Part shown: in pieces, positions 8,490 to 19,237 of the stretch
Layout of the letters: each line of letters starts with the position of its first letter
How positions within the stretch are numbered: position 1 is the first letter of the stretch
NCBI RefSeq assembly: GCF_002252705.1
Contig: NZ_NQLA01000002.1
Location: 1 to 64,000, forward strand
Length of the DNA: 64,000 nucleotides
Origin: Vulcanococcus limneticus LL
GTDB taxonomy: Bacteria; Cyanobacteriota; Cyanobacteriia; PCC-6307; Cyanobiaceae
Direction of reading: 5' to 3'
The notes under the pieces: model-generated
The model's database searches: none
What the model was told of the DNA's origin: nothing
What the model saw: only the letters and a program-made list of their open reading frames with translations
Position numbers and translations under genes: made by a program

Positions 8490-8532
8490 CGCGGAGGACG
8501 GGGACGGACTCACCCAAAAGCCTACCAGTGAA

Positions 8533-8548
8533 ATAACGCCATCGTGAT
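8533..8548. promoter_or_regulatory. Candidate operator, copy 2 (upstream of hemerythrin-acsF operon)
   Basis: ATAACGCCATCGTGAT matches copy 1 at 4583-4598 in 13 of 16 positions. The idealised form of both is the palindrome ATAACG-N4-CGTTAT. It lies 44 bases upstream of the hemerythrin-like start, in the intergenic region shared with the divergent ArsR-type gene. This is a plausible shared control site for both arms of the tetrapyrrole cluster. Confidence 0.4.
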
Positions 8549-8675
8549 ACTGGGGCAGCGGCAACCGTTGTATCGGCACCCCATGCTGCCGCGATAGAGG
8601 TGCTACCATGGTGAGGGTCCCCGGCTTGCGCGAGCCGCTTCCGCCCACTCAGTTACATCCGCCGCCCCACCTCCC

Positions 8676-8981
8676 ATGGAAGCCCTGGCCGAGTACTTCA
8701 AGGTGTTCTCCGAGCCCAACCGCCTGGCGGTGCTGGAGGCCCTGCGCGGCGGCCCGCTCAACGTGACGGCCGTGGTGGAGAAGACGGGACTCAGCCAGGC
8801 CCTGGTGTCCAAGCACCTCAAGCTGCTCACCATCGCCGGCGTGGTGCAGCGCCGGCCCGAGGGCTCGCTCGTCTTCTACGAAGTGATCGACAAATCGGTG
8901 TTCAAGCTGATTGCCCAGGCCGAGAAGCTGCTGCTGGCCGCCCGGCGCCAGCAACTCGACGCCCTGGCCGCCATCCTGTGA
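8676..8981 (+). CDS. ArsR-family transcriptional regulator
   Basis: A 101-residue winged-helix repressor. EYFKVFSEPNRLAVLEAL is the usual ArsR N-terminal helix pair and TGLSQALVSKHLKLLTIAGV the recognition helix region, followed by the wing (RRPEGSLVFYEV). The protein has no cysteine, so it cannot use the classical thiolate metal site or a thiol switch. The sensed signal is unknown. It is divergent from the hemerythrin-acsF-desaturase-ADO operon and is the obvious candidate regulator of it, taking the genomic position that the Fe-S protein ChlR holds in other cyanobacteria (inference). Confidence 0.88.
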   Translation: MEALAEYFKVFSEPNRLAVLEALRGGPLNVTAVVEKTGLSQALVSKHLKLLTIAGVVQRRPEGSLVFYEVIDKSVFKLIAQAEKLLLAARRQQLDALAAIL

Positions 8982-9026
8982 TGCCCCCCTCCGGCGCTCT
9001 CCCCAGCCGGACATGTCTGCTCCGGC

Positions 9027-9737
9027 ATGGCTCCATCTGAACCCGCTCCATCTGAACCCGCCCCATCGGACCCCGTCGGATCCGGGAGCGCCCCGCCGCC
9101 CCGGTCCCTGGATGAGCTGCGCGCCGCACTCCTGGCCGGCCGGCACTCCTTTGCGGGCCTGCGCCTGGGGGATCTTGACGGGGTGGACCTGGACCTTTCG
9201 GACTGCGACCTGAGGGGGAGCTGTTTCAAGGAGGCCCGCTTCGGCCGCGCCCGATTCCGCGCCGCCCGGCTGGAGGGGTGCCGCTTTCAGCAGGCCCTGC
9301 TCTGGGGTGCCGACCTCTCCTCGGCCCAGGCGAGCGACTCCTTCTGGCACGAGGCCGACCTCTCCGGCTCCCGCCTGCAGGAAGCCGATTTCTCTGGTGC
9401 CCTGCTGCACCGCGCCTGCCTGCGCGGCGTGGTGGCCGCCGGCAGCCGCTGGCGGAACACGCGGTTGGTGGAGGCCGATTTCCGCAGCGGCCTGGATCAG
9501 CTCACGGACCTGGGCCGCGCCGACTTCCAGGGCGCTGACCTCAGCTTTGCCCTGCTGCAGGGGGCCCAGCTGCACGGCGCCGACCTGCGGGGCGCCTGTC
9601 TCTACGGCACGGACCTGCGCAACGCCGACCTTCAGGAGGCCGATCTGCGCGGCTGTGACCTGCGGGACTGCAGCCTCGATGGCACCTGCCTGGAGGGGGC
9701 CCGACTGGACCGAGCAGAGCTCGGCGACGCCGGATAA
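9027..9737 (+). CDS. Pentapeptide-repeat protein
   Basis: A 236-residue protein. After a Pro/Ser/Ala-rich leader (1-26) and a short helical segment, residues about 45-232 consist of A(D/N)Lxx-type pentapeptide repeats (for example ADLSGSRLQEADFSG, and ADLRGACLYGTDLRNADLQE), expected to form a right-handed quadrilateral beta-helix. Such proteins are abundant in cyanobacteria and function is rarely predictable. No signal peptide or membrane segment is visible. It follows the ArsR gene by 45 bases on the same strand and may be co-transcribed with it. Confidence 0.85.
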   Translation: MAPSEPAPSEPAPSDPVGSGSAPPPRSLDELRAALLAGRHSFAGLRLGDLDGVDLDLSDCDLRGSCFKEARFGRARFRAARLEGCRFQQALLWGADLSSAQASDSFWHEADLSGSRLQEADFSGALLHRACLRGVVAAGSRWRNTRLVEADFRSGLDQLTDLGRADFQGADLSFALLQGAQLHGADLRGACLYGTDLRNADLQEADLRGCDLRDCSLDGTCLEGARLDRAELGDAG

Positions 9738-13234: not shown

Positions 13235-14180
13235 GGCAACAGGTTCGGCCTTGAGATATCGCGGGCGCGTCTTGTCCCTTTCGCGTGGGAGCACCTGGAC
13301 AAATCGATCTGATTGCGGGGCCTAGAGACGCAGGACTCCAGGCCTGATTCGCCTGGCATGAGCAGTGCAGTCAATACCCTTTGCAACCCCAGGGGGCTCC
13401 TGGCGAGTGTCCCGCGGGCAGGGGCTGGGAGTCAGTAGCAGAGTTACCGGTGGAGGCAACACGAAGGGGGCGTACCACAGAAAACGCTCTACCCACGGCT
13501 TGCAGCCGTAACAGAGAGCCAGACCGTGAGAACAAACCCGGTCAGGGTGTGGCAGCTCGTGCAGATCACTCGACACCTGGGCAGCCCAAGAGCAGGTTCT
13601 GAGCAGACCGCTCAGAATGCGGTGCAGCTCCATCCAGGTTGATGGGTCTGGGCAAGACGTTGTGCCATACAGGTCTTGTCCAGGTTGGGATTCTCCAAGG
13701 GAAGGCGATTCCAAGGCAATGACGACCAGTGCACCCGGGGAGCAGCACGATGATGCGGACATGGCTCCGTCAACACGCTTGAGACGCACTCCTCGGGGAG
13801 GCTCTCCAAGCAGCGGCCCACAATCTACCTAGGGGAAATCAGAATCCCTGGACAGCAGGGTCAACAGCAGGCATGCCCAGGACCCTGCAACCACAGAACA
13901 ATTTAGCGCATGGAACTCGCCCTGGATGATCGCAGCTGCTACCCACACTCACCGCCTCACCGGAGCGCCTGTTCAGCTTGAACAATGGCTTGCTACCAGC
14001 GGATGCTAAATTCTTTGAAGGATGCAGAACAAACTTGAGGTCATACGTTGGTCTGCAGACTGCTCGGCAACGTCATCCTTTGAAAGCTCAACAAGTACAC
14101 CAGAACCCGAGAAAGGTCCTGCCCTTTCTCCCACGAGTCCGCAGGCAGACCCGAGCGCTCCCTACCCAACGGAGCGGCGG
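13235..14180. other. Long gene-poor stretch upstream of the decarboxylase operon
   Basis: About 950 bases with no recognisable gene. Short open frames on both strands (for example 13381-13602 + and 13322-13789 -) show no family motif or consistent codon pattern. GC is lower than in the flanking housekeeping genes. No tRNA, terminal repeat or transposase fragment was recognised. It may be decayed mobile DNA plus the promoter region of the downstream operon. The decarboxylase frame stays open back to 14022, where an alternative ATG occurs. Confidence 0.6.
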
Positions 14181-15350
14181 ATGACCTACGACCCCTGGGG
14201 CCAGCATGAACGCCGCTTCCCCGGCAACGGGGCAGCGGCTCGACTGACGGCGCTAAAAGCTCACTTCGAAGATCGCTCAGCCCATTACATCGGATTTCCA
14301 AATAGTCGCTTGCTGTCTTTTGCGGCTTTGGCCGATTTCCTGAAATTTAACATCAACAATATCGGCGATCCATTCCATCCCAACAATGGGATCAACACCT
14401 GTGATTTTGAGCAGGAGGTGATTGCCTTCTGGTCGACAGCACTGCACCTCGATCCCGCTGCAGGCTGGGGCTACATCACCAACGGCAGCACCGAGGGAAT
14501 CATGTACGGGATTGCCCAGGGGCGCGATCGGTACGAGGACGCGATACTGATCTTTTCAGACCAATCCCATTACTGCCTGCACAAGATTGCCCATCTGCTG
14601 CGGCTGCCCCACCGGGTCATCCCCAGCCATCCAGACGGCACCCTCAACCTCGAGGCCCTGAACACGACGCTGGCGGAGCTGGGAGGCCGCCCCTGCATCC
14701 TCAACCTGACCGTGGGCACCACCTTCCATGGCGCAATCGAGGCGCCTCAGCAGGTGCTGGAGCTGCTGGAGCAGCGACACTGCCGAGACTTCCATCTGCA
14801 TGTGGATGCCGCCCTCTACGGTCCGATGCACTGCTGGATCGCCGGGGCGCCCCTGTTCGATTTCCGCCTGCCGATTCATACCCTCTCCTTTTCCGGTCAC
14901 AAGTTCCTGGGCGCGCCGATTCCCTGTGGGCTGGTGCTCAGTCACCGCGACCCCATCCAACCCTTCGCGGGCAGCGCCGAGTATGTGGGATCGCTGGACA
15001 CCACCCTGTCGGGCTCGCGTGATGGATTCTGCGCCCTCCTGCTCTGGCTGGTGATCCAGCAGCTGGGCCCCCAGGGGCTGGCCGAGATGGCGGCCGAATC
15101 CCTGCAGATGGCCGCGGAGCTGGTCAGCCGGCTCAAGGCGGCCGGCATCGCCGCGACCCGCCATCCCCAGGGCTGCATTGTGGTTTTCCCGAGACCGGAA
15201 CAGGCCATTGCCAGGCGCTGGCAACTGGCTACGTACGGTGACTTTGCCCATATTGTGACCGTGCCGGGCGTGACCCAGGAGATGATCGGAGCATTCATCG
15301 CAGAGCTGGTGGAGGCTGGAGCGCAAACCGCCACCGGCCTGGGGCCCTGA
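14181..15350 (+). CDS. hdc: Histidine-decarboxylase-like PLP enzyme (group II)
   Basis: A PLP-dependent amino acid decarboxylase of 389 residues closely resembling bacterial group II histidine decarboxylases. The cofactor lysine is K241 in SFSGHKFLGAPIPCG, the ring-stacking histidine H130 in FSDQSHYCLHKI, the pyridine-nitrogen aspartate D209 in HLHVDAAL, and TNGSTEG (100-106) binds phosphate. The C-terminal part contains TLSGSRDG and a VVFPRP segment typical of the family. The expected reaction is histidine to histamine and CO2; another amino acid substrate is possible. ATG 14181 has GGAG eight to eleven bases upstream; ATG 14022 would add 53 low-complexity residues. The stop is 2 bases from the next gene. 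First of four same-strand genes in a low-GC island. Confidence 0.85.
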   Translation: MTYDPWGQHERRFPGNGAAARLTALKAHFEDRSAHYIGFPNSRLLSFAALADFLKFNINNIGDPFHPNNGINTCDFEQEVIAFWSTALHLDPAAGWGYITNGSTEGIMYGIAQGRDRYEDAILIFSDQSHYCLHKIAHLLRLPHRVIPSHPDGTLNLEALNTTLAELGGRPCILNLTVGTTFHGAIEAPQQVLELLEQRHCRDFHLHVDAALYGPMHCWIAGAPLFDFRLPIHTLSFSGHKFLGAPIPCGLVLSHRDPIQPFAGSAEYVGSLDTTLSGSRDGFCALLLWLVIQQLGPQGLAEMAAESLQMAAELVSRLKAAGIAATRHPQGCIVVFPRPEQAIARRWQLATYGDFAHIVTVPGVTQEMIGAFIAELVEAGAQTATGLGP

Positions 15351-15352
15351 GC

Positions 15353-16729
15353 ATGGGCAGTCTTCCGATCCGACGTCGGTGGTACTGGAATCCGGCAGTG
15401 GAGGGGATCCTGTTTGCCCTCGCCTGGCTGGCGATCACCAACGTAACCATCTACTTCATCTACGTGCGGGCAGTGGAGGCGGTGAAGGAACAGATCCGTG
15501 AGGGTCTGTTGCGGAATGTGAGCGCCGCCGCCACGGTGATTGATGGCGATCAGCACCGGACGTTCACCTCCAAGGCCGCTAAAAACGATCCCAGCTATCA
15601 GAGTTTCATCCAGCGCCTCGAGCGTCTGCGCCGGGCCTCGAGCGACGTTCGCTATGCCTACACCAACATACTCAAGGATGGGAAGGTGTACTTCATCGCC
15701 AACGGCAGCCTCCAGAACGACAACGACAAGGATGGCCGCCCCGATGAGGCACCGCAGCTCATGGATCCCTATCCTGATGCCGGCCGAGCGCTACTCGAGG
15801 CTCTTCGCCTGCACAGACCCACCGTCGATCGGGAACCGTACACTGACGCCTGGGGCACCTTCTACAGCGCCTACGCCCCCTTCAAAGATTCCAAAGGGCG
15901 ATTCGTCGGCACCCTCGGGATGGATCTCGAGCTGGTCACGCTGAAGGCGCGGCTGGTGCCGATTGGCGTTGCTGCCCAGCGGGCAGCCTTCACCTCCGGC
16001 ATCCTGGCGTTCCTGTTCGGGACCGCCGTCTGGTACTTCCGCAGCCGCAACCACATCCTCGAAGAGCAGCACCGCAAGGGCCTCGACCGGATCGACACAC
16101 TGGAATTGGAACGCAGCCAGGAGCGCACCGCTGCCGCGATCCAGTTGGAGGCTGTGGCCTCCAGGATTCACCAGACGACGGCCACTGAAGTCGGGGTGAC
16201 ACCGGCGGACCAGACGCGGACGTACGCGATGGCCCTGAGGCGTTATGCGCTCGCCAGGCAGGGGCACCGCTCCAGCCATGGCGAAAACTTCGATCCAGCC
16301 CAGCAGGTCCGATCGGCTCTGCCGACGGAGATCCCAGTTGAGGTCTCCCGCGAGGTGCCCTCCAGGCTGTTCGGTGACCCCAGTGAAATGGCTGACATCC
16401 TGAAATCTGTGTGTTTCAATCCGCTCAGCAGCACAATTCTGGGATCGTTACAACAGGTCAGTCTTGAGGCCAGCCGCGAACAACTCAACAGTCTCGATCT
16501 TGTCGTGACCCTGAGGTTCTGCGGGGCCATGGAGGGTCGCGGCAGCGGCGGAACCCTGATCCAGGACCCGGACCACCCCGAGCACGTCTTCGACGAGGAC
16601 TCCCTGCAGTTCGCCACCTGCTGCGAACAGGTCCGCGCCCTGGGCGGCAGCCTGTCCCACGTTCAGGATGGAGAGGAGGTCGAGCTCGTTCGGCTCATCC
16701 TGCCCTTCGAGAAGTTCCGGGAAACCTGA
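15353..16729 (+). CDS. Membrane receptor: Cache-like sensor plus degenerate histidine-kinase-like domain
   Basis: A 458-residue protein with two membrane segments (about 18-38 and 210-228) enclosing a 170-residue extracytoplasmic domain. Its C-terminal part, FYSAYAPFKDSKGRFVGTLGMDLE, is typical of Cache-type small-molecule sensors; NDNDKDGRPDE resembles an acidic calcium-like loop. A charged helix (about 232-262) leads to residues 312-458, which resemble a HATPase fold: LFGDPSEMADILKSVCFN aligns with the N-box region of histidine kinases, and VRALGGSLSHVQDGEEVELVRLILPF with the C-terminal strand. No phosphoacceptor His, proper N box or GxG boxes are visible, so it is probably a pseudokinase receptor. 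It sits 2 bases after the decarboxylase stop and 3 before the transporter. Confidence 0.72.
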   Translation: MGSLPIRRRWYWNPAVEGILFALAWLAITNVTIYFIYVRAVEAVKEQIREGLLRNVSAAATVIDGDQHRTFTSKAAKNDPSYQSFIQRLERLRRASSDVRYAYTNILKDGKVYFIANGSLQNDNDKDGRPDEAPQLMDPYPDAGRALLEALRLHRPTVDREPYTDAWGTFYSAYAPFKDSKGRFVGTLGMDLELVTLKARLVPIGVAAQRAAFTSGILAFLFGTAVWYFRSRNHILEEQHRKGLDRIDTLELERSQERTAAAIQLEAVASRIHQTTATEVGVTPADQTRTYAMALRRYALARQGHRSSHGENFDPAQQVRSALPTEIPVEVSREVPSRLFGDPSEMADILKSVCFNPLSSTILGSLQQVSLEASREQLNSLDLVVTLRFCGAMEGRGSGGTLIQDPDHPEHVFDEDSLQFATCCEQVRALGGSLSHVQDGEEVELVRLILPFEKFRET

Positions 16730-16732
16730 ACC

Positions 16733-17911
16733 ATGGCGCAGGCAAACCAGACCACGGACGACAGAGGAACCCTGGTGGCGGTAGCGGCCCTGGTCCTCGC
16801 CACGGCGGTTGTGCAGGCGGCTGTGGGCTTCAACACCGTGCTCTTTCCAGTGCGCCTCGAGGGCTACGGATTCAGCAAGGGCCTGATCGGCCTCTGCCTG
16901 GCCTTCGAGATGGGTGCGGTGGTGTCGATCGTCTCCTCGATCGATTGGATCCTCGCCCGCCTGGGCCTGGTGGGCACCATGGCCCTGGCCACCGGGGTAC
17001 GCCTGGTGGTGCTGCTGCTGCTCCCCGGCAGTCGCAGCCTGCCGCTCTGGTGCCTGGGGGTGTTCTGCTTCGGCATCGGCACCTACCTCTGCCTGATCTC
17101 GCTGCAGACCTGGGTGAATGCCGTGCCGCTGGGGCGCCTGCGCGGTGTGGTGAGCGGCTGCTACAGCTCTGCCCTGTCGCTGGGTACCGCCAGTGGGCCG
17201 ATCCTCTTCAACCAGGTGGGATCGACGGCAGGCAGCCAGGCCTTTCAGGCCAACATGCTGATTGTGCTGCTCGCCCTTCTCCTCGTTGTTCCGTTCCTGA
17301 ATCGGCAGCCGCGAATCGCCAGCCAGGGCCGGCTACGCCTGGGGTATGCCATCCGCATGGCGAAGGTGCCGATGCTCTCCTCCTTTGTCGGAGGCGTCAC
17401 GTTCTTCGGTCTGCCGGCGTTCCTGACGCTCTACGGGATGATGAATGGTCTCTCGGTGCAGCGCGCATCGTTGCTGCTCACGGCCTTCATGCTCGGCTCT
17501 GTGAGCCTGGGGCTGCTGATTTCCAGCCTCTCGGATCGTGTCAACAGGACCCTGCTGACGATTCTCTGCGTACTGGTAGGTGTGGTCTGTGCCGTCTATC
17601 TGCCACTGGGCATCTACAACTACGGCATTGCACTGAGCCTCCTGTTTCTCTGGGGAGGAGCTGCCGGAGGCATCTACGCCACGGGCCTGGCCACGGTGGC
17701 CGATCTATTCAGACAGGAGGACCAGGTATCAGCCAATGTGGCCTACTCCATTCTGGACAACGTGGGCGGCATCATCGGCGTGCTGTTGATCGGTGCACTG
17801 ATGGGTGCAGGCATCTCCGATGGCATCGTGTATGTCATCGTGCTGACTGCCTTGAGCTATTTCATCTACTGCCTGGCACAACTTCTACACAGCCCAGACC
17901 ATGCCATCTGA
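16733..17911 (+). CDS. MFS transporter, probable exporter or uptake carrier of the island
   Basis: A 392-residue polytopic protein with about 12 hydrophobic segments and an MFS-like layout: N-terminal half to about residue 190, a basic central loop (RQPRIASQGRLRLG), then a second half. FGIGTYLCLISLQTWVNAV and the following RLRGVVSGCYSSALSLGTASGP resemble YcaD/sugar-drug MFS members. The substrate cannot be read from sequence. Position between a decarboxylase-receptor pair and a ligand-gated channel, with only 3 bases to the upstream gene, suggests transport of the same small molecule (amine or its amino acid precursor). No fold-disrupting feature is seen. Confidence 0.82.
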   Translation: MAQANQTTDDRGTLVAVAALVLATAVVQAAVGFNTVLFPVRLEGYGFSKGLIGLCLAFEMGAVVSIVSSIDWILARLGLVGTMALATGVRLVVLLLLPGSRSLPLWCLGVFCFGIGTYLCLISLQTWVNAVPLGRLRGVVSGCYSSALSLGTASGPILFNQVGSTAGSQAFQANMLIVLLALLLVVPFLNRQPRIASQGRLRLGYAIRMAKVPMLSSFVGGVTFFGLPAFLTLYGMMNGLSVQRASLLLTAFMLGSVSLGLLISSLSDRVNRTLLTILCVLVGVVCAVYLPLGIYNYGIALSLLFLWGGAAGGIYATGLATVADLFRQEDQVSANVAYSILDNVGGIIGVLLIGALMGAGISDGIVYVIVLTALSYFIYCLAQLLHSPDHAI

Positions 17912-17986
17912 CACTGCAGCTCTCGTCAACCACCAACGACACCCAGGACAACTCTGCTGCGTTTGCCACCACACGCCAAACTCTCG

Positions 17987-19237
17987 ATGAACCCACACGA
18001 GCCACGCCGCAGAGCACGACAGCGCACCAGCCTGCAGAAGCCATGGAATCTGTCAGCTCTGCTGATGGCGCTCATCGCGATCGGCCTGATGCTCCTGGCT
18101 GTTTTATCGGTTGATAGGCCCAGCAGTCGAACGGGCGACTATCTGGAGCTCTCAGGCAGCAACAGCCAAGCGATCATTCAGCGCAAGAAAGGGCTAAGCG
18201 AACTGCTGAAACGCGACCATAACGACTACCAGAAGTCCGGCAAGGATAATGCCGCCCCTGCTGAGCAGGGTGTGATGAAAGTCAAGATGGGAATTTACGC
18301 CATGAACAACTATGGCATCAATCTCCAGGTCCCCTCCTTTGAGAGTTCAGGCTATTGGTGGCTCAAGTGGGATGACGATCTCCAGGAGTACCTGACCAAG
18401 AACGACCTCAAAATCTGGAAGGTCCTGACACCCGTCAACCTGCTGGACATTCCCCAGTCCGCCGATTCAGTATTTGTCCCCACCGGCAAGGACGAACCGA
18501 TCCGAATGAAGGATGGCAGCTGGTACATGACAGGAGCCTACAGCGGCATCTTCTTCATTGATCGCAGCGACTTTCGCCGTCACCCCTTCACGACATTAAG
18601 CCTTCCGATCATGATCGAGGCCGACGATATCGTACTGAGCAACAACAGGCTGCAAATCGTGCCCGACGTGCAGGGAAGCGGGATTGGTCAATTTACTTAC
18701 TCCAACTCAGGATGGGTCAACCAGGGCTGGACATTAGCATCCTATAAACACCATTACGACACAGATTTCGGCTTTGGTCAAGGGGCCTCGGACTACAGCC
18801 AACTGGTGTTCGAAGTGAAGTATGCCTCCAGCAGCTGGTCAGCCTTCTGGAAAGTTCTGGTGCCTTTGTTGATCGTGATGGCCATGATCGCTGGAGCCAC
18901 AAAACTCGATACCACGCATTACGACGTTCGTCTCACGCTGCCCGTCACCGTACTGCTGACCTTGGTTTTCCTGCAACAGACGCACGACGCAGACCTTCCC
19001 CGCCTTCCCTATCTCACCTTCTTGGATGAAGTCTATGTCGTTGCCTACATCCTCACCCTTGGAGCGTTTATCATGATGCTCTGGGCCTGTCGCCGGTACT
19101 ACAAGGCCCTGCAGATCAAAGACCCGGTTGAGCAAGAGGTGGAACTGAAGAAGCTCGACAAGTCAGACGATTACTGGCCCACCTATGTCATCGCAGCAGG
19201 CATCATCTCGTTGACAATCAGCTGGTTTACGGGTTGA
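17987..19237 (+). CDS. Pentameric ligand-gated ion channel (prokaryotic Cys-loop-receptor homologue)
   Basis: A 416-residue protein (the longer reading would need TTG at 17963). Residues 21-41 are a hydrophobic signal or anchor. The extracellular domain follows: VKMGIYAMNNYGINLQ and YWWLKWDD match the first strands of GLIC, and DFRRHPFTTLSL (194-205) matches the conserved FRRYPFDSQTL loop, without cysteines as in other bacterial members. M1 is about 285-303 and M2 about 314-331. The M2-M3 loop DLPRLPYLTF aligns with NLPKTPYMTY of GLIC; M3 is about 349-368 and M4 397-415. An ungapped alignment to GLIC puts Asp313 at -2', Thr317 at 2', Thr321 at 6' and Leu324 at 9', suggesting a cation-selective gated pore. 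It lies 75 bases after the MFS gene; local GC is near 48%. Confidence 0.88.
   Translation: MNPHEPRRRARQRTSLQKPWNLSALLMALIAIGLMLLAVLSVDRPSSRTGDYLELSGSNSQAIIQRKKGLSELLKRDHNDYQKSGKDNAAPAEQGVMKVKMGIYAMNNYGINLQVPSFESSGYWWLKWDDDLQEYLTKNDLKIWKVLTPVNLLDIPQSADSVFVPTGKDEPIRMKDGSWYMTGAYSGIFFIDRSDFRRHPFTTLSLPIMIEADDIVLSNNRLQIVPDVQGSGIGQFTYSNSGWVNQGWTLASYKHHYDTDFGFGQGASDYSQLVFEVKYASSSWSAFWKVLVPLLIVMAMIAGATKLDTTHYDVRLTLPVTVLLTLVFLQQTHDADLPRLPYLTFLDEVYVVAYILTLGAFIMMLWACRRYYKALQIKDPVEQEVELKKLDKSDDYWPTYVIAAGIISLTISWFTG

Follow-up and report, generated by a model that had tools for sequence, protein, structure and literature searches.

To our knowledge, little has been established about what pentameric ligand-gated ion channels do in bacteria or which ligands they naturally bind. 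A locus of the cyanobacterium Vulcanococcus limneticus LL raises the question of whether such a channel can be encoded together with the source of its own signal. The window, that is, the whole stretch of DNA analysed, comprises 64,000 nucleotides (positions 1 to 64,000 of contig NZ_NQLA01000002.1, C8 in our numbering) of a 3.55-Mb genome in 160 contigs. Four consecutive genes on its + strand encode a decarboxylase, a Cache sensor protein, a major facilitator superfamily (MFS) transporter and a channel subunit, with intergenic gaps of 2, 3 and 75 bases. A sequence-only reading of this DNA had named these genes and joined them in an amine-based make/export/sense/gate loop. Order, strand and gaps were confirmed from the open reading frames (ORFs), and the four identities stood up to Pfam, NCBIfam, phmmer and profile searches. 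Our analysis revealed that the four-gene unit is real, conserved and apparently mobile, and we propose that it may be a horizontally mobile cassette for signalling by a self-made small molecule.

Orthologues of the cassette genes were counted by identity in 300 genomes from the family of the window. The enzyme has an orthologue in 7/300 genomes (62–100% identity; next match, 28%), and the Cache protein in the same seven (58–100%; the next match is partial, at 34%). The channel, of a group that we call clade A, is found in nine (56–100%), namely all seven of these genomes and two others, G032 and G074. The random probability that 7/7 fall in 9/300 is 9e-13, and kinship makes the true figure larger. 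In the window and in G150, G062, G250, G163 and G262, a single contig carries all four genes, with order and strand unchanged; in G105, contig C2 stops within the MFS gene (residues 4–68), and contig C202 starts within it (residues 57–391) and continues into the channel. A wider scan with an enzyme-alignment pattern over contigs of approximately 85,000 species' genomes, which may miss distant copies, gave 201 pattern hits that led to eight loci. Five of these are genomes already in the family sample (L081, L082, L083, L084 and L088), and the scan added two cyanobacterial four-gene cassettes (L085 and L087) and one metagenome-assembled genome (MAG) of the Lentisphaerae (L086). The cyanobacterial cassettes total nine genomes: eight on unbroken contigs in one order and strand, the ninth agreeing by its contig-end coordinates, and in 9/9 the clade-A channel is immediately downstream of the MFS gene. 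Since the arrangement recurs in nine cyanobacterial genomes, it exceeds chance, and the linkage that the sequence-only reading had asked to be checked is conserved. The named carriers are Synechococcus strains and cyanobacterial MAGs, whose record names suggest lakes; the decarboxylase of Synechococcus sp. GreenBA-s is 89% identical to that of the window.

The Lentisphaerae copy (genome G628) shows which part of the unit is constant. It holds the enzyme (55% identical to that of the window), the Cache protein and the MFS protein (58–59%) in the same order, while its fourth gene encodes a SpoIIE phosphatase (Pfam, 1.8e-37) with a fused Cache domain, the second in the unit, and no channel match was found in the 10.6-Mb genome. 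Therefore, the core consists of enzyme, sensor and putative exporter, and the output is exchangeable between a channel and a Cache–SpoIIE phosphatase. Among 194 genomes of the same phylum, identity drops to 40% for the second-ranking enzyme and to 38% for the second-ranking Cache domain. The Cache region (residues 14–230) is 67% identical between the window and the Lentisphaerae protein, compared with 20% for the remainder of that protein, and 55% identical between the window and the phosphatase. Across the two phyla, the order of conservation is Cache domain (67%), MFS protein (58%) and enzyme (55%). Thus, conservation within the unit is highest in the sensing part and lowest in the outputs. 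This pattern points to a common small-molecule ligand, for which it is the strongest argument, and it is independent of the channel. The Lentisphaerae genome contains five Cache-domain matches, one of them in an ORF of Cache–SpoIIE-like length on another contig. In other members of the family of the window, Cache-kinase proteins related to the sensor lie approximately 2.6 kb from a SpoIIE-like phosphatase in five of six loci (L113, L114, L115, L116 and L118; three of the six were read as full kinases), which fits the Lentisphaerae arrangement.

Several observations mark the cassette itself as the unit, and apparently as a mobile one. When the 6-kb flanks of nine copies were compared by protein, L032, L082 and L086 had no neighbours common to any other copy; neighbours were common to the window and L081, and likewise to L084, L087 and L088. 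The GC content of the cassette is 60.5% in the window, compared with 69–70% in the 10 kb on each side, and 58.8% in L086, compared with 64–66% in its surroundings. Over eight cyanobacterial copies, pairwise comparison of the identity matrices for the four proteins gives correlations of 0.90–0.96 (permutation p of 0.001 or less), as for genes inherited together, although close relatives in the set would produce part of this anyway. Plasmids and viruses were considered as carriers: the channel protein had no match in 72,556 plasmid records, and a clade-A channel pattern scan of viral contigs gave 32 pattern hits and no relatives.

The decarboxylase (14181–15350, + strand) is a group II pyridoxal 5'-phosphate (PLP) enzyme of the histidine/serine decarboxylase subfamily. 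It matches NCBIfam NF002748, "histidine decarboxylase", at 366.9 bits (cut-off, 305) and Pfam PF00282 at 1.1e-19. A second in-frame ATG lies upstream at 14022, and the ORF of the close relative L031 begins at the position corresponding to 14181. K241 (the PLP lysine) and Y268 (the catalytic tyrosine, equivalent to Tyr341 of the Arabidopsis serine decarboxylase) align with the solved enzymes in 10/10 cassette sequences. According to the available text of PMC11407765, the substrate-setting residue in the plant subfamily is Tyr111 for serine and Phe106 in the tea alanine decarboxylase. The cassette enzymes have Asn41 at this position, within FPNSR (10/10), whereas it is Glu (YPE) in the bacterial histidine decarboxylase 7erv and Tyr (YPY) in the plant enzyme 8jg7. 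In addition, SRDG (residues 279–282 in the window enzyme) replaces SRNG in all ten. FPNSR and SRDG occur in none of 11 other aligned sequences. By sequence, the cassette enzymes share the fold family of the group II histidine and serine/alanine decarboxylases (7erv and 8jg7). Thus, the serine and alanine signatures are absent, and so is the Glu of histidine decarboxylase, for which 7erv is the single solved yardstick. Two further motifs, GTTF and GP(M/L), were dropped as cassette-specific since GTTF also occurs in L107 and GP(M/L) in L106.

These features predict an active decarboxylase with a cassette-specific substrate, for which "histidine" would be a family label only. H183, R43 and D281 lie close to the presumed pocket and may indicate a substrate that is polar or acidic. 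Histamine as the product is not supported, given the Asn where 7erv has Glu; with the specificity residue and SRDG both differing from the solved histidine decarboxylase, we rejected histamine as the default product. Among distant relatives of the enzyme, four from another cyanobacterial family (L108, L109, L110 and L112; 34–36% identical) lack the His found directly before the PLP lysine of the solved enzymes and have the YPY motif of serine decarboxylase.

The Cache sensor protein (15353–16729, + strand) has one extracytoplasmic Cache domain (approximately residues 38–205) between two hydrophobic segments, followed by a kinase-core-like C-terminus. The match of the window protein to Pfam dCache_1 is sub-threshold (E 0.13), and that of its orthologue L032 is still below the cut-off (2.6e-5). 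The Cache part shows homology to the extracytoplasmic region of sensor kinases from the same cyanobacterial family (L113, L115 and L117), at approximately 1e-33 in a search of three sequences only, and the ATPase part of Cache histidine kinases is detectable in the C-terminus in a single hhalign comparison (92%, E 5e-7). A model of the sensor (pLDDT 73.4) led Foldseek to kinases such as GacS and RetS, a result used only to name the fold family, as TM-scores by query length were 0.22–0.32 among the 50 matches listed and root-mean-square deviations were often large. Unlike the three comparison kinases, all of which have the four motifs, the cassette Cache proteins lack the His box, N and G2 motifs (9/9), and D.G.G (G1) occurs only inside an insert present in four of them. 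The "membrane receptor with a Cache-like sensor" of the sequence-only reading therefore keeps its Cache part, and with the motifs missing its remainder is, judged by sequence, a degenerate histidine kinase. Such a protein probably acts by protein contact.

The insert, of approximately 150 residues, lies within the degenerate kinase part of L084, L085, L087 and L088, between window residues ~394 and ~400. By eye it resembled Calx-beta; the two scanned gave no Calx-beta or other convincing Pfam match. An acidic loop, DNDKDGRPDE (15719–15748, residues 123–132), is nearly invariant in the cassette Cache domains and in that of the Lentisphaerae phosphatase. We take this loop to resemble a calcium-binding loop. 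The dCache_1AM family comprises amine receptors with an amine-binding residue motif, as far as the available part of PMC10104139 describes them; the window sensor has one Cache module.

The MFS protein (16733–17911, + strand) matches PF07690 (MFS_1) at 3.4e-19, has no sequence match in the PDB and gives weak NCBIfam matches to a bacillibactin exporter and to multidrug models. It is a putative exporter of the decarboxylation product, the direction being the presumed one.

The channel subunit (17987–19237, + strand) shows homology to the GLIC and ELIC chains by phmmer (approximately 1e-8). A profile of eight channel relatives matches ELIC, of Dickeya/Erwinia, at 3.1e-12 over positions 90–371 (49.3 bits), compared with 31.3 bits for GLIC, which makes ELIC the closest solved relative in the profile search. 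This homology to solved pentameric members is significant over both the ligand-binding and the pore domains. The match to NCBIfam LGIC_1 (1.3e-7) is far below the cut-off, and the window protein is not recognised by the Pfam channel models; Neur_chan_LBD matched nothing in the host genome or in any control and says nothing on absence. Residues 1–95 form an N-terminal extension with one hydrophobic segment ahead of the ligand-binding domain. The monomer model of the channel built from eight sequences was too poor (pLDDT 46.5) for a fold search.

The available text of PMC3119659 reports that ELIC is opened by primary amines and describes the role of F19 in the amine site. In a joint alignment, we compared the ELIC positions F19, Y38, E131, F133, Y174/175 and F187/188 with the cassette channels. 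Residues of matching type (Y104, Y123, E211, Y257 and Y/F270) occupy five of these six positions in 8/8 clade-A channels. We presume the roles of some of the ELIC positions to be as generally understood. The host genome carries a second, distant channel (G000:C13:181099–181935; 36% identity over 282 residues) with no cassette genes nearby, and it also keeps the five positions, with F at 270. The retained residues support an amine-type site in the channel group and not a cassette-specific ligand. Position -2' of the pore is acidic in 7/8 clade-A channels (Asn in L033), suggesting cation selectivity. Compared with ELIC, the cassette channel has its own N-terminal extension, a non-aromatic residue at F133 and linkage to an enzyme that could make its ligand.

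A second group of channels, clade B, lies outside the cassette. In 10/13 clade-B loci (L035, L038–L044, L047 and L049), the channel adjoins a gene of a binding-protein cluster of divergent type I periplasmic proteins, assigned in one case by Pfam (Peripla_BP_6), in two more by reading and in the others by BLAST cluster. Such a pair stands directly beside the cassette, upstream in L084 (6865–9256) and downstream in L085 (6907–8917), and is the common content of these two flanks; a remnant lies beside the cassette in L087 (~8510–9245). Tasneem et al. (2004, PMC549065), in the text available from that paper, described bacterial channel genes that share a predicted operon either with a binding protein or, in Rhodopseudomonas, with a stand-alone Cache protein, and the cassette resembles those operons in this respect. 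The word "decarboxylase" does not occur in the searched text of PMC549065, nor do the terms "operon" and "genomic context" in that of PMC4795631. A locus of this composition was not found among the papers listed by searches of the open PMC literature, a scope that takes in few subscription papers. The novelty, as measured against the searched text of PMC549065, is thus the linkage of an enzyme and a transporter to the channel in a conserved unit with synthesis and export genes.

How might the unit work? The decarboxylase would convert an amino acid, probably not histidine, into a primary amine, and the MFS protein would export it. The Cache protein would sense the amine outside the membrane and relay its state via the apparently dead kinase-like C-terminus, probably through protein–protein contact. 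The ELIC-like channel would serve cyanobacteria as a second, ionotropic receiver that admits cations; in the Lentisphaerae, the phosphatase with the same Cache domain would take the channel's slot. A single amine-like signal that the unit itself produces, exports and detects would account most economically for both the gene composition and the output swap, and we judge the chances of this reading to be even. The signal may also have a role at the population level. Binding of the same signal by the channel, and its opening thereby, is a tentative extension. We regard as similarly doubtful the fullest version, a bacterial ionotropic transmitter system in which a dedicated amine is made and released, two receivers encoded at the same locus (a cation channel of the nicotinic/GABA receptor superfamily and a pseudokinase with a Cache domain) respond to it, and the three-gene core moves between phyla and connects to different outputs.

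The components belong to known families, and signalling by a self-made small molecule is of a known kind. Autoinducer systems combine a signal maker, a putative exporter and a membrane sensor in one conserved unit as the cassette does, a resemblance of function only that would presume action through one molecule. Their synthase/sensor systems use an active kinase and a response regulator as receivers; the cassette has instead a degenerate kinase and an ion channel, or a Cache–phosphatase.

Several points weigh against this proposal. The clade-A channel occurs without orthologues of the enzyme and Cache protein in 2/9 sampled genomes: in G032 (96% complete), it has no other cassette gene within 16 kb, and in G074 (76% complete), it is split over two contig ends. 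The Lentisphaerae core has no channel, and this sole cross-phylum copy is a MAG, so that misbinning is possible; yet its fourth gene is absent from the cyanobacterial cassettes. Across 386 genomes sampled from the whole phylum, the enzyme relatives that come next are 34–37% identical and occur in seven genomes of one other family. Nine distant relatives (L104–L112), comprising five of these seven and four from the phylum of the Lentisphaerae, have no Cache, MFS or channel match within approximately 9 kb (9/9); therefore, membership of the enzyme subfamily does not in itself imply a link to signalling. As for the channel, pairwise phmmer scores GLIC and ELIC alike, ELIC F133 corresponds to the non-aromatic D213, HMMER shifts the loop-B acid by two columns, and the same five amine-site positions are kept in 15/15 clade-B channels outside the cassette (D/N at 213). 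Finally, the 75-base gap upstream of the channel may carry a separate promoter. Scans for sigma-70 promoters (none found; 1.2 expected) and for terminators (five terminator-like; 3.5 expected) did not exceed chance, and the former was uninformative. The loop of the sequence-only reading thus survives as one unit, by its linkage, and in its make/export/sense logic, which is backed independently by the Lentisphaerae copy, whose core lies next to a phosphatase that carries another copy of the same Cache domain; that the channel is indispensable is not supported.

An alternative that retains some weight, although we consider it unlikely, is acid or ion homeostasis, in which decarboxylation uses up protons, the MFS transporter trades product against substrate or protons, the Cache protein is a stress sensor and the channel, like GLIC, opens in response to protons or another ion instead of the product. 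Acid-stress pairs of decarboxylase and transporter are known, the equal phmmer rating of GLIC and ELIC would fit, and the acidic Cache loop could presumably bind calcium. However, the profile search prefers ELIC; the known pairs usually involve APC-type exchangers, whereas the transporter here is an MFS protein; and pH buffering has no need of a dedicated Cache domain, which is the piece best conserved across phyla.

No likelier, in our estimate, is export of a metabolite or building block (a natural product, metal ligand or osmolyte) whose production the Cache protein regulates, with the channel as an accessory passenger. The conserved unit holds no further biosynthetic gene, the channel is kept in 9/9 cyanobacterial copies, and the Lentisphaerae copy has a second sensor-output protein in its place; these facts are set against the weak matches of the MFS protein to bacillibactin and multidrug exporters and the core without a channel in L086.

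It is rather improbable that the channel answers an unrelated ligand, such as an amino acid delivered by a periplasmic binding protein as may be the case in its clade-B sisters, and is merely co-expressed with the amine module. The clade-B pairs with Peripla_BP_6 neighbours, two of them beside cassettes, and the lone channel in G032 suggest such a role, but the window cassette and most others have no adjoining binding-protein gene, and the channel directly follows the MFS gene in every cyanobacterial cassette. A version with histamine as the molecule made by the enzyme, exported through the MFS protein and sensed by receptor and channel is very improbable: the NF002748 cut-off is exceeded, but among solved relatives the plant serine decarboxylase scores highest (245.8 bits), ahead of 7erv (204.5 bits), and Asn and SRDG replace Glu and SRNG in all ten enzymes.

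Our proposal of a self-made signal sensed by the Cache protein and possibly the channel has consequences for this channel superfamily, whose bacterial members ELIC and GLIC are structural models for human neurotransmitter receptors. As the enzyme for the presumed ligand lies within the cassette, the ligand question of a bacterial channel becomes directly testable. If the proposal holds for the channel too, this would be, by the searches made, the first bacterial channel of the superfamily whose gene is linked to a source of its own ligand, and the cassette would be a signal core that keeps its sensor domain while swapping its outputs, an ion channel in one phylum and a phosphatase in another.

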